In this document: in pieces, positions 1,925-32,874 of the stretch | How the letters are laid out: each line of letters starts with the position of its first letter | How positions within the stretch are numbered: the stretch's first letter is position 1 | NCBI GenBank assembly: GCA_949358305.1 | Contig: OX442315.1 | Span: forward strand, 34,870,427 to 34,934,426 | DNA: 64,000 nucleotides | Reading direction: 5' to 3' | Source: Strigamia acuminata | Taxonomy: Eukaryota > Arthropoda > Chilopoda > Geophilomorpha > Linotaeniidae | Program-made: the position numbers and the translations under genes | Notes under the pieces: generated by a model | Seen by the model: only the letters and a program-made list of their open reading frames with translations | Told to the model about the DNA's origin: nothing | The model's database searches: none

Positions 1925-3137
1925 GGACGCGGCCAACAACTGTTTTGTGATGACCTGTGGTGACCTCAAATATTCCTATTTGAGTGCGCACCATATTTCC
2001 AAATTGTCTTATAAATATATTCAACAAGCTTATATGTCTTGTTTCAATGTAAATTGAAATAAAACATACATTAATAAAATATAAAACAAGACACAATATT
2101 GCCTAAATAATATTGTGTTTTGCAGCAAGTTTTGGCCCGGCAACAGCGTCAACCAATCACGTTACGGCGTGCATTGCTTTGATGATGCTGCTAGGCGTGT
2201 GCCTGGGCGGAGCATCCCTTCCCCTCGCGCGTGCCCGGCTCGATTGTTGCACACGACCCGAAGGCGGCCGTGTGTGATCTTCATGCAACTCGTCATCTGC
2301 GCAGCTTTTCTGAGCAGATTTAGAAGTGAGCCAAACGGTTTTGGCCCACTCTTCCCGCACTCTTGATTCCACCTCCAAACTGTTCACAACCGTGTCAAAC
2401 TTCTGCCAAAACTGCAAAGTGTGATCTGTGATTCTTGGACGAATTGAGTTTCATCGCTGGTCTGTACCCACTGTACGGAATAGCAACTTTCTAGCTTGAA
2501 TTACTACACGTAATTTAAGCCATTTCTGTGTGTGAATTGACATTGAGCTTGCTCTGTCAATTTGTAGTTCTTTGTGTCGAGCTTGCTCCACAAAGAAATC
2601 TGTGTGAAACTAACATCGAGTTTACTCTGTTAGTTTGAAGGCTTTGTGTTGAGTTTAACTCCACAAAGCGAATTGTGTTAAGACGGATTGTTACGTCGAG
2701 CTTGCTCCGTAATAATCAGACCGCTGTGTGCAAGACGTATTCTCGTGTCGAGCTTGCTCCGCGAGGATTTTTAGTATATTTTAGCAACGTATTTTGGCGT
2801 TGAGTTTACTCCGCCAAAATCCCGCGCTCACACGACGCCATCGACGCCATCTTGGAGCCAACGGTCAACTGTGAGTGTACATTTGAAGAAGAAGCCAGAT
2901 CGACCCCAAACATTTTAAATAATACCTCCTTTGTATTTTGAACGATTAAAACTATCTAATTTTTCCTTTACTCTGTGTAAAATCATTCCCCTAGACAAAC
3001 ATTTGGCCACAGAGTAGAAGTCCTGTACGGCATCTCTACGACGATTGCTTATTGAATTTACATAATTTAATAAGTAAAAACCCGGATCGCCGCAGACCAG
3101 TGGTCGAATATCATGGCCAGACCTGGACCATTAGATT
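1925..3137 (+). mobile_element. insertion inside the copia LTR, probable LTR/leader of another retroelement
   Basis: Comparison with the related sequence at 4503-4720 places about 1.2 kb of extra DNA here. It holds an AT-rich stretch with a TTTCAAT/ATTGAAA hairpin (2042-2059), a GC-rich block (2115-2420), the hairpin array (2494-2820), then AT-rich DNA. No clear target-site duplication or TG..CA ends were found. A gypsy RNase H fragment lies about 430 bp downstream, so the leader or LTR of a gypsy element is a reasonable guess. No coding sequence is recognised. Confidence 0.4.
2494..2820 (+). repeat. array of eight hairpins, seven with one constant tip
   Basis: Seven hairpins share the tip GAGC-TT-GCTC (or GAGT-TT-ACTC; hairpin 4 has one extra base) behind a TC/TT linker, each on a different 8-10 bp stem: 2535-2562, 2568-2597, 2607-2636, 2641-2669, 2686-2717, 2739-2768 and 2791-2820. 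A leading hairpin with another loop (TACAC) is at 2494-2520. Stem sequences differ yet pair fully. The four non-Watson-Crick pairs (2498/2516, 2690/2713, 2741/2766, 2746/2761) are all G-U if the + strand is the RNA; on the other strand they would be A-C mismatches. Tip variants are compensatory (GC to TA at the fourth base). The function is unknown. Confidence 0.85.
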
Positions 3138-6234: not shown

Positions 6235-8073
6235 TTACAGACTCCAATTGTCAGCTCCACCACCGCCCCACTCGTTAGTCGGGGCTTGAGCGGCCGGTTG
6301 CGCAGGCACGGATGCGGACCAATCATCGGCAGGCTGGTTCGACCACTCCTCGGTCGGCGGGAAAGTCGTCATCCCAGTAATCGGTGCAGGAACCGGCTCA
6401 GCCGACCACTAAACAAGAAAACAAATAAAAATCAACACCAGAAACAAACAAACAAACAAAAACATCAAACACACGTCAGTCACGGTTGGTTCCGCGGGCG
6501 GGATCTCGGGTGCGTTCCACTGCTCGGAAGGAAACTCGGGCTGTTCCTTCAACGCCTTGTCCGCGGCCGCAGCTTCTTCCTTTTCGGCCTGCAATCATAA
6601 ATTGTGAGTTTTAATCGCAAATCGCGTTTGAAAAATCAATCGTAAGTCACTTCTTCGGGGTCGCGGTAGAAGAACAGATCGACCATGACGTCCCATTTGA
6701 TTTCGCGACTGATGGATCCACGGAGACGGAGCACTTCGCGGGCCAACAGCCACCACATCAAGCCGATCGAGTGCGCGCCCTTGTTGTTGCATGGAATTGC
6801 GATGTCGACGTATCGCAGCGGCGAATCGGTGTTGCAGAATGCAATCACGGGGATGTTGACGTAAGATGCTTCCGTTACGGGTTGGTGGTCTTGACGAGGG
6901 TCTGTTATGACGAGTAGACGGGGTTCACGAAATGCAGCCTGAGGAAAGGAAAAAAAATTGAAAATGTTGAATTTCATTCGTTTTCGGTTATTTTCCACGT
7001 TTTTAAATTAGTTTTCTGTTATTTTTTGGGTGTCTTTGTTCATTTTTCTATTATTTTAGCGAATTTTGTTGGTTTTTTTAAAATTATTTTTGGCGATTTT
7101 AGGTTTTTTCCTTCATTTTTCTATTATTTTGGCGAATTTTGTTGGTTTTTAAAAATTATTTTTGACGATTTTAGGTTTTTTCCTTCATTTTTCTATTATT
7201 TTGGCCAATTTTGTTGGTTTTTAAAAATTATTTTTGACGATTTTGTTGGTTTTTAAAAATTATTTTTGACGATTTTAAGTTTTTTTTCCTTCATTTTGCT
7301 ATTATTATGGCGATTTGTTAATTTTTCTATTAATTTGGCTATTTTTGTTCCTTTTCTGTTATTTTTGGCGAATTATGTTGGTTTTTTAAAATTATTTTTG
7401 ACAATTTTAGGTTTTTTTCCTTTATTTTGCTATTATTATGGCGATTTTTGTTCCTTTTTCTATTAATTTGGCTAGTTTTGTTCCTTTTGTGTTATTTTTG
7501 GCGAATTTTGTTGGTATTTTAAAATTACTTTTGACGAATTTAGGTTTATTCTTCATTTTTTAATTAATTTGGCGATTTTTGTTCCTTTTTCTGTTATTTT
7601 TGTCCGTTTTTTGTTAATTTTTCCGTTATTTTTGTTAATTTCTCCGTTATTTTGAATTATATTTTACCTGGATTTGATTGGTAAAAGTACCGGGTGTGAA
7701 ACGACCAGCAATCGGGGTTGATCCAGTGTAAGAAGCGAACTTCAGAACAGCTCTCTGACCGTACGGGCGGGACGAAATAACGCAAATATCAGCCGGGTTC
7801 TCGATCGCTACAATCGCGCGTGCCGCCAACAACAACTTCTCCCATGTTTTTCTCAAATTGATGACATGTACACCTAAAAATCAAGTTCACATTAAACTCA
7901 ATTTTTTTTTTTATTCTTTTGTTTAATTCGGTTATTTTACCATCGGCTTTCCTCTTAAAAACGTACTGCAACATTTGATAGTCCACATTTTGTGTTCCGA
8001 TGTGAGTACTGCACGCTAATAATCTGCTAACATCGTCTTCCTTAAGAGAAAGCGCTTCCAAACTTCCAGACAT
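6235..8073 (-). CDS. RPSA: 40S ribosomal protein SA (laminin receptor homologue)
   Basis: Component of the small ribosomal subunit (uS2 family), needed for 40S maturation. Five coding exons read on the minus strand: 8073-7941, 7873-7668, 6938-6651, 6588-6475, 6408-6235; all introns GT-AG and in phase; 304 residues against 295 in human. The N-terminal [15 protein letters not shown], the core [13 protein letters not shown] and [11 protein letters not shown], and [20 protein letters not shown] are almost universal in RPSA. The C-terminal exon has the animal-type acidic/Trp tail (EEWS, DDWS, NEWGG, ending NWSL). The start is the only ATG in the conserved context. A minus-strand tract CACTTCCGCTCC (8308-8297) upstream could be a 5' TOP transcription start. 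Divergent from GGA. Confidence 0.97.
7020..7640 (-). repeat. T-rich tandem repeat in RPSA intron 2
   Basis: About 70-75 bp degenerate units on the + strand containing TTGGCGAATTTTGTTGG, TTTTTGACGATTTTAGG and TCCTTCATTTT, drifting into shorter units after 7260. It fills most of the intron between RPSA exons 2 and 3. Open reading frames here are by-products of the repeat. Confidence 0.85.
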
Positions 8074-31449: not shown

Positions 31450-32874
31450 TTAATGATCTTGAAACATTCTTCTGAAACATTTTTCCTTTCTTCTCTCCCT
31501 TTTTTCCTTAAAATTCTCCACCCGTCTCCTCTGACTCCGCGTCGTCTTCGGCTCTCCACGTTTCCTATAAACGTTTTCCACAGCTTTCAAATCACCGGGC
31601 GAAAAATGCGTAACCCTGGCAACCTTCTCGCTCTTGGTTCCCACACCCAACCCCTTTCTGTCGCGTTTCAGCACCGTTTTAACCGGGTACTTCCTTCCGT
31701 CTCCTTTCGGCCCGAGTCCCTCCTCCCTATTCCAGCCGTCTTTGAGCAACAGCCGAAACCCGACGTTGTGTTCCGGTATTTGATACACGGCGGAGTCTTT
31801 CACTTCCGGTTGCGAACAAAATAAATGCAAAGTCGATGTCTGGTGAGAGAAAGGCGTCGTTGTCTCAAATTTTTCTTCGCAGACTCCGCAGTAGAAGTTG
31901 ATTTTGTCGTTATTGCCTTCTGTTTTGGTCGATTGTTCGAGTTTGCGCTGTTTGATCATTGCTTCGACGTGTGTGAGTTGTTTGGCGACATTTTTGTGTC
32001 CACAAGTGTTTGCTATGGCTACTGCATCGCGTCCGGATTTGTCGGTTGCGGTGATGTCTGCGCCGTGGTTGACGAGGAACTTCGCTGCTTCGACTGCACC
32101 TTGGGCGGATGCGCACATCAAGGCTGTCCAATGGAATGTGTCGGTGATGTTAATGTCGAATCCACTGAATAAAAAGTAAAAATTTGATTATTTTAAGCAA
32201 AAATTTGATTATTTTAAGCAAAACTTTGATTATTTTAAGCAAAACTTTGATTATTTTAAGCAAAACTTTGATTTTTTTAAGCAAAAATTTGATTTTAAGT
32301 AAAAATATGATCAATTTAAGTTAAAATATGATCAATTTAAGTTAAAATATGATCAATTTAAGTTAAAATATGATAAATTTATGTAAAAATTACATTAATT
32401 TGAGCAATTTGATCAATTTATGCAAAAAATTGATCAATTTATGCAGAAATTAAATCAATTTATGAAAAAATTTGATCAATTTATGCAGAAATTTAATCAA
32501 TTTAAGCAAAAATTTGATTGTTCAAGTAAATATCTGGCAACCTTTATATAAATCTAATATAACAACCTCATTATATAGTCCTTCAGTCGACTGATGTCAT
32601 TATTTTGTGCGGCTTTGAAGAATCCGATGATATTCAAAGGTTGTGTTTTCTTCTGAGGTGTTGGTCTTTTACGTTCACTGACTTTAATTACACGGGGCGT
32701 TATTGGCCTTGATTTTTTCTCTATCTGCTGCACTGGTGATTTAATTACTTCTTCATAAAATTCTTTAATTTCCCTGCCGTCAAGTGCTTTTATCTCAACA
32801 TTTTTGGCTGTGCTTGTCGATGATGTCTCTAGTTTGCTACTTTCCGTTGACTGAACGAAATATTTCCAATACAT
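31450..32874 (-). CDS. GPANK1: G-patch and ankyrin repeat protein GPANK1
   Basis: Two exons: 32874-32567 and 32164-31450; 340 residues (human 356). N-terminal low-complexity part, then ankyrin repeats (NIIGFFKAAQNNDISRLKDY; DTFHWTALMCASAQGAVEAA; ADITATDKSGRDAVAIA), a Cys/His segment (FYCGVCEEKF...H..HL), a G-patch (VGFRLLLKDGWNREEGLG, then KGDGRKYPVKTVLKRDRKGL) and a basic C-terminus. This order is diagnostic of GPANK1. G-patch proteins usually bind RNA or activate DEAH helicases; the precise role of this family is not established. The single intron is filled by a 21-bp minisatellite. Same strand as BUD31 (419 bp away) and TSR3 (288 bp). Confidence 0.95.
32175..32525 (-). repeat. 21-bp minisatellite in GPANK1 intron
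   Basis: AAGCAAAACTTTGATTATTTT and related AAGTTAAAATATGATCAATTT units, 20-21 bp. Confidence 0.92.

Follow-up and report, generated by a model that had tools for sequence, protein, structure and literature searches.

A tandem array of bulged hairpins encoded by the LTR of a Ty3/Gypsy retrotransposon as a candidate cis-acting leader RNA

Structure of the hairpin array

The stretch of DNA analyzed in this work (64 kb in total, hereafter the window) contains, between positions 2494 and 2820, seven hairpins with a near-constant tip on stems of varying sequence. An initial annotation had proposed an array of eight hairpins at this place, and both RNA folding and the positions of the tips agreed with this reading, with seven like-tipped hairpins and a different leader. 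The tips were located at 2545, 2579, 2618, 2651, 2698, 2750 and 2802. No further site with this pattern was found on either strand of the whole 64 kb. Six of the seven matched GAG[CTTG/TTTA]CTC exactly; the tip at 2651 (GAGTTTAACTC) had one A added.

The folding energy of the region 2490-2824 was -103.7 kcal/mol, compared to a mean of -78.8 kcal/mol for shuffled sequences (z -5.62; equaled by none of 100 shuffles), and all eight hairpins appeared in the RNA folding of this region. Since the minus strand also folded well (z -5.15, near the plus-strand value), folding alone gives no verdict on the strand.

The lead hairpin H1 (2494..2520; plus strand, as for all the others) consists of 11 bp closed by a UACAC loop (GCTTGAATTAC-TACAC-GTAATTTAAGC), which is unlike the loop of the other seven; it reached -10.8 kcal/mol on its own, with a z of -6.03 for 2490-2524. 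The remaining hairpins, delimited by folding together with the tip pattern, are variants of one module. H2 (2534..2563) has a 9-bp stem, a UU bulge and GAG[CUUG]CUC, and H3 (2568..2597) and H7 (2739..2768) carry the same tip on a 9-bp stem with a UC bulge, as does H6 (2686..2717) on a 10-bp stem. The tip GAG[UUUA]CUC is found in H4 (2607..2636; 9-bp stem, UC bulge) and H8 (2791..2820; 9-bp stem, UU bulge), and H5 (2641..2669), the fourth of the seven, combines an 8-bp stem and a UU bulge with the tip GAGUUUAACUC, which contains the extra A. The module can thus be written as stem-UY-GAG[CUUG/UUUA]CUC, in which 8-10 bp of lower stem are followed by a 5'-side bulge of two nucleotides (TT or TC), three constant GAG/CTC pairs and a CUUG or UUUA loop. 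Single-hairpin folding energies were modest (-10 to -13 kcal/mol). With respect to the initial annotation, the lower-stem length of 8-10 bp was reproduced, while the stems are not unbroken into the tip, being interrupted by the bulge in every one of the seven. Likewise, the two tip forms, GAGC-TT-GCTC and GAGT-TT-ACTC, were both recovered, but the proposed 2-nt loop is better described as a CUUG/UUUA tetraloop with covariation between its first and last positions.

A model of the hairpin recovered all seven copies in the window and gave no match better than E 3.4 elsewhere in it. None of 4227 Rfam families matched the segment 1500-3500 at E values up to 1. Further, the units of the array repeat at 72-73 and 52 nt and have flanks in common, which indicates that they arose by tandem duplication.

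Covariation of stems and tip

In the six exact hairpins of the window, 95.2% of the cells were paired, and both sides had changed in 10 of 14 pairs (5.8 in shuffled alignments). The covariation score was 0.79, compared to 0.30 +/- 0.07 after shuffling and 0.11-0.23 for slid versions. The number of pair types (17 vs. 13.8 when shuffled) was reached by 58 of 500 shuffles and is not clearly above chance. A model built from these six hairpins (R1) was run over 42 loci at E values up to 5 and yielded 103 matches, the weakest of which were near chance. Among their 51 distinct rows (alignment A2), 91.7% of the cells were paired vs. 68.4% after shuffling, with a score of 0.652 vs. 0.219; pairs changed on both sides showed no separation from the shuffles (10 vs. 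9.8, reached by 365 of 500).

Because the R1 alignment is fitted to the structure, we also examined copies occupying the same slot of the array and hairpins defined by the tip motif only. In the same-slot copies, 25 of 27 changed pair cells still paired, compared to 12.6 expected, seven of them through two-sided changes. This count takes distinct arm pairs only and leaves out the L055 row of clade D; when rows with identical arms but another bulge or tip were treated as separate and that row was included in H4, pairing was kept in 28 of 34 cells. Two rows (L009 and L014) fit H3 and H5 equally, and assigning them to H5 or omitting them changed the result to 24/26 (11.9 expected) or 22/24 (11.2 expected), respectively.

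The tip motif TYGAGYTTRCTCYR occurred 992 times in the searched genome (237.5 Mb), compared to 35 occurrences of its reversed control. Its loop was CTTG in 575 cases and, by subtraction, TTTA in 396, and the mixed pairs CTTA and TTTG were found 8 and 13 times (reversed controls, 3 and 11). Because the members of a family are related to one another, neither these genome-wide counts nor those of slots and rows represent independent events. Twenty chromosome-1 loci were fetched via the tip motif; in three of them (L012, L021 and L023) a good stem was lacking, and these appear to have been picked up by chance.

Among the 32 distinct slot rows in the window's family, 30 had a TT or TC bulge, the other two being one TA and one GT, the latter in a hairpin of another clade. 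In the lower stems, G-U cells outnumbered A-C cells by 42 to 12, an excess that favors the plus strand as the RNA. The initial proposal that structure has been kept over sequence is thus borne out by covariation at three levels: within the array, between slot copies and, as described below, in a second clade of LTRs.

Host element, putative leader and relatives

The array lies in a solo LTR of 1139 bp (TGTGGTGACC...GGATCGCCGCA, TGTGG...GCCGCA, with TG...CA ends) on the plus strand at 1956..3094, as delimited by alignment with other copies. The flanks of these limits carry a target-site duplication, GACC, at 1952..1955 and 3095..3098, and 4-bp duplications were found at three more loci (L014, AAGT; L022, GATG; L055, CCAC). 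At L055, a window-type LTR is nested in a second-clade LTR between the CCAC copies, and at L008 a tandem array with a 280-bp period (1-1058) lies directly upstream of the LTR insertion. Elsewhere in the window, similar sequence pairs flank the LTR (~1350-1435/4353-4435 and 1855-1925/4549-4625), by eye remnants of a copia-like element, and the minus strand carries two host genes, one represented by an exon of the ribosomal protein S2 family (6636-6998) and the other encoding a G-patch/ankyrin protein (31453-32121). Their known relatives are all distant, which places the species far from those in the protein set searched, and as judged from these genes and relatives the genome is that of an animal.

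A genome search with window positions 2400-2900 returned at least 54 matched stretches (40 of 274 candidates were scored), many of which formed pairs with a spacing of about 11.8 kb, in the manner of LTR pairs. Two LTR pairs were 99.8% and 99.9% identical, which indicates that the window's family probably moved recently. In several copies, CTTGGGGGCCCGTCCGGGAT directly follows the 5' LTR, and its last 18 bases, TGGGGGCCCGTCCGGGAT, are exactly complementary to the 3' end of tRNA-Pro(AGG) plus CCA, the gene for which is present in the same genome. A purine run (the polypurine tract, PPT) precedes the 3' LTRs. The ORFs of one element encode Retrotrans_gag, zf-CCHC and RVT_1 domains, with Integrase_H2C2 and rve downstream; RNase H was not among the domains named in the ORFs scanned within the two sequence pieces of this one element. 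With a gag carrying a zinc knuckle and reverse transcriptase (RT) ahead of integrase (IN), the element is, as judged from its sequence, a member of Ty3/Gypsy (Metaviridae), which agrees with the initial view of an RNA array belonging to an LTR element. The orientation of the array is that of the primer-binding site (PBS) and gag. Its place had been surmised to be between the LTR and gag; instead, it is located within the LTR, upstream of the PBS.

The PBS of the window's family and that of L045, a member of the second clade, differ in a single base and match two distinct tRNA-Pro-like 3' ends, CGGACGGGCCC and CGGACAGGCCC, located at C3:13883648 and C8:3406234. Each version of the primer site seems to follow its own tRNA version, the first of which corresponds to a confirmed tRNA gene.

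After integrase follows a third ORF of 756 aa, the first half of which is RS-rich by eye. Copies of this ORF include L029:14-2281 (minus strand, 756 aa) and L058:4335-6014 (plus strand, 560 aa), the C-terminal domains of which are conserved, with 39% identity over 231 aa, and predicted to be helical. Genome-wide, 872 candidate places were listed, and many open frames of about 750-770 aa were present among the 150 scored. No relatives of the third ORF were found.

Upstream of the array, a conserved block, GGCCCACTC (2343..2351, plus strand), contains a CCCACTC core common to nine aligned LTRs (L044, which carries an insertion, was left out of this alignment) and is a putative promoter or start region. 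Downstream, ATTAAA (2945..2950, plus strand) is a putative polyadenylation signal, with A(A/T)TAAA-like sequences at the matching place of the aligned LTRs, and is followed by CCCCTAGACA (2988..2997, plus strand), which is similar in eight of the nine, the exception being L037. Both the start and the poly(A) site remain putative assignments made from conservation only.

From the block to the end of the LTR, the plus strand is free of ATG for 752 nt (2343..3094; 0 ATG vs. 12 CAT), a putative 5' leader within the LTR. In 2000 dinucleotide shuffles of this stretch, the mean number of ATGs was 11.5 and the minimum 4, never 0. In L002, the sequence is ATG-free for 844 nt, from the block to the gag ATG. 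Among the 31 loci carrying the block (L054 lacks it and was excluded), no ATG was found in 11, one in 15 and two or more in five (L014, 2; L015, 3; L047, 2; L020, 4; L037, 16), and 13 of the 15 single ATGs lay within about the first 60 nt. For L015, L046, L048, L020 and L037, in which no end motif was found, a default length of 800 nt was used. Overall, putative leaders of about 680-980 nt with few or no ATGs were observed in the window's family and in the second clade, and CAT occurred in them as often as normal. Given this ATG-free stretch from the promoter-like block onward, the most likely place of the array is a 5' leader scanned by ribosomes on the sense strand. The LTR position, the conserved block and the scarcity of ATG point to the leader, and the scarcity of ATG but not of CAT, the G-U excess and the orientation shared with the PBS and gag point to the plus strand. 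The leader position proposed in the initial annotation is thereby supported by the promoter-like block upstream, the PBS and gag start downstream and the ATG-poor stretch between.

The window's family comprises 23 loci, with seven hairpins in nine loci, five in twelve, two in L009 and five in L055. A second clade (L013, L016, L044-L055, L059 and L060) has LTRs whose first bases are the same as in the window's; the two members tested, L013 and L016, gave no blastn match to the window's LTR at E 1e-5, and short blocks were shared in global alignment. In L045, a tRNA-Pro-like primer site comes directly after the 5' LTR. Three hairpins with GAG...CTC tips were present in 14 of 15 second-clade loci, with one in L045, and two of the three have a larger internal loop. 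The 13 distinct sequences of these two slots (alignment A4, from which an unrelated GAG...CTC outside the slots, L048:1157-1196, was excluded) had 98.2% of their cells paired and a score of 0.406 vs. 0.198; their number of pair types, reached by 112 of 500 shuffles, was not in excess of the shuffled alignments. Compensatory changes in other copies, the absence of which had been named as grounds for abandoning the RNA reading, were thus found. L020, L037 and L038 contain one or two hairpins with window-like tips. In L095, a single locus of a related family bearing the third ORF, the module gave no match (E up to 10) in the readable part of the sequence, 701 of 901 bases, of which the leader's share is a guess; the module is thus not universal in the group.

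In the second and third clades, a further hairpin with a loop of approximately UAACG and compensating stems (TCTCGGGTAACGCCCGAGA, CTTTGGGTAACGCCCAAGG, TCTCGAGTAACGCTCGAGA) was noted ahead of the arrays, at L013 (oriented position 711), L020:813, L052 and L054.

L058 is a 7.4-kb relative in which gag, the third ORF, a primer-site-like stretch and a PPT are present, and RT and IN were detected neither by tblastn nor in its ORFs. It lies between LTR matches at C13:726068 and C13:733544, and its two LTRs match the second-clade LTR at 82% over query positions 1-519, an extent spanning all three hairpin slots (this refers to the extent of the match only). L058 therefore appears to be a non-autonomous yet gag-bearing element. 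LTR pairs at a similar spacing were also seen at C1:60765022/60772372 and C5:16157186/16164647.

Candidate functions and known systems

The combination of a free stem with a constant bulge and tip has the look of a protein-docking hairpin, and its repetition that of a multi-site platform. We tentatively favor, at somewhat below even chances, a Ty3/Gypsy cis-acting leader RNA in which the tandem array of bulged hairpins docks one protein, likeliest Gag, for packaging. The LTR would encode, in R or R/U5, a transcribed 5' leader in which the module is repeated; the stems would act only as scaffolds, drifting freely while remaining paired, and bulge and tip would form the constant, recognized part. 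The hairpins, five or seven in most copies, would be equal docking sites for one RNA-binding protein, probably the CCHC nucleocapsid (NC) part of the element's own Gag, and docking would recruit and package the genomic RNA. The potential for structure, the covariation, the LTR location, the ATG-free leader of the window copy and the alignability of the L058 LTRs were obtained directly, and from these we infer sense transcription, protein binding, the partnership with Gag and the packaging outcome. L058 has no detectable pol and has kept its LTRs through the hairpin slots, which implies that cis signals matter there; since the pol serving it is not its own and Gag has a zinc knuckle, Gag-driven packaging is our first choice, followed by control of translation or transport and then by strand transfer. 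The varying number of hairpins, mostly five or seven, fits additive docking sites.

A more specific version, possible although doubtful, is a natural 'tandem aptamer', in which equivalent modules would bind a dedicated element protein, duplication would tune their number and the stems would diverge against recombination or mispairing. Its partner would be Gag-NC or, less likely, the product of the third ORF with its RS-rich half. If true, it would represent a repeated-aptamer array evolved by the retroelement itself.

It is rather unlikely, although with a real chance, that a docked host or element RNA-binding protein controls scanning to gag, or RNA export and localization. Repeated hairpin export and localization elements occur in other retroelements, the leader is free or nearly free of ATG up to the gag start, as if scanned, and hairpins of -10 to -13 kcal/mol leave scanning plausible. 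However, an ATG-free leader only shows that ribosomes probably scan through it. A role in reverse transcription appears improbable: the array would lie in R, at both RNA ends, and aid minus-strand transfer or dimerization in a TAR-like manner. The conserved block and A(A/T)TAAA flank the array, which would place it between the putative start and poly(A) sites, in R, and residual conservation in long R regions is linked to stem-loops in PMC3601003. Strand transfer, however, needs identity between the two R regions and not a constant tip on changing stems, and the tips are not long self-complementary kissing loops.

We regard as very improbable a reading at the DNA level, in which the array would consist of palindromes bound by a DNA-binding protein, as Su(Hw) binds its sites in the gypsy insulator of Drosophila. 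Gypsy carries 12 Su(Hw) sites over a 460-bp stretch of its 5' transcribed untranslated region (PMC7800606); the array is similar to this stretch in place and size, and its tip is near-palindromic. Nevertheless, the variable lower stems keep their pairing via double changes that DNA sites would not need, so that sequence-conserved sites free of a pairing requirement, as in an insulator, are not what was found; in addition, a cruciform would be symmetric, unlike the excess of G-U over A-C. Hardly credible, finally, is functionless decay of tandem palindrome copies with pairing restored by template switching. Tandem duplication of the units, with shared flanks, is in its favor, but template switching would erase the bulge and the wobble pairs, both of which persist, 25 of 27 changed cells in the slot copies still pair vs. 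12.6 expected, and the tip recurs in the second clade (L013 and L016) beyond blastn similarity to the window's LTR. The initial annotation had named the decay of a single palindrome as an outcome that would count against its reading; the persistence of bulge and G-U pairs, with most changes remaining paired, speaks against such decay.

Under the favored reading of a docking array for packaging, the leader RNA of an LTR retrotransposon would here have a structure supported by covariation, and it would illustrate how RNA docking sites multiply and diversify within a mobile element. The 992 exact tip motifs in one genome amount to many natural variants and, together with the clear separation of a stem free to vary from a constant part for recognition, mean that a binding partner could be sought directly.

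As far as they are known, the packaging regions of Ty1, Ty3 and retroviral psi are compact folds of unlike stems. Like the array, these leaders are structured 5' RNAs by a tRNA primer site, upstream of a gag that encodes a CCHC protein; in contrast to them, one bulged module is repeated here and its stems are interchangeable. PMC4974528 describes packaging of Ty3 as NC-dependent and calls the structure of its RNA uncharacterised. Like the array, the gypsy insulator is a series of repeated protein sites, located in the 5' untranslated region that a Ty3/Gypsy element transcribes (PMC7800606), but its DNA sites are read as sequence, whereas the array keeps pairing and leaves the stem sequence free. 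TAR is a hairpin with a short pyrimidine bulge. Stem-loops of this kind resemble the present module in that bulge and possibly in their position in R, and they differ in that TAR is one hairpin at the start of the RNA, served by an element-encoded trans-activator, rather than an array. Long R regions with stem-loops have been noted (PMC3601003).

With regard to the loop, GAG[CUUG]CUC corresponds to a CUUG loop closed by G-C, the UUUA variant swapping the pair. In CUUG tetraloops, the first and last bases pair, and such hairpins are general stable loops in rRNA; the array differs in that its module is repeated and has a bulge that stays constant. A small-RNA-like segment (tRNA or 5S) is also carried inside the LTRs of Helenus, Ajax and Cassandra; according to PMC10886601, these segments act as promoters and derive from known RNAs, and a function as tRNA or 5S finds no support in the folds predicted for Helenus and Ajax. 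The array, in contrast, has no Rfam match and its pairing is conserved. Among the matches listed in a search of open-licence papers, judged by titles and the starts of abstracts, no repeated bulged hairpin array of such design was found, in line with the initial annotation, whose author was aware of no described element of this kind.
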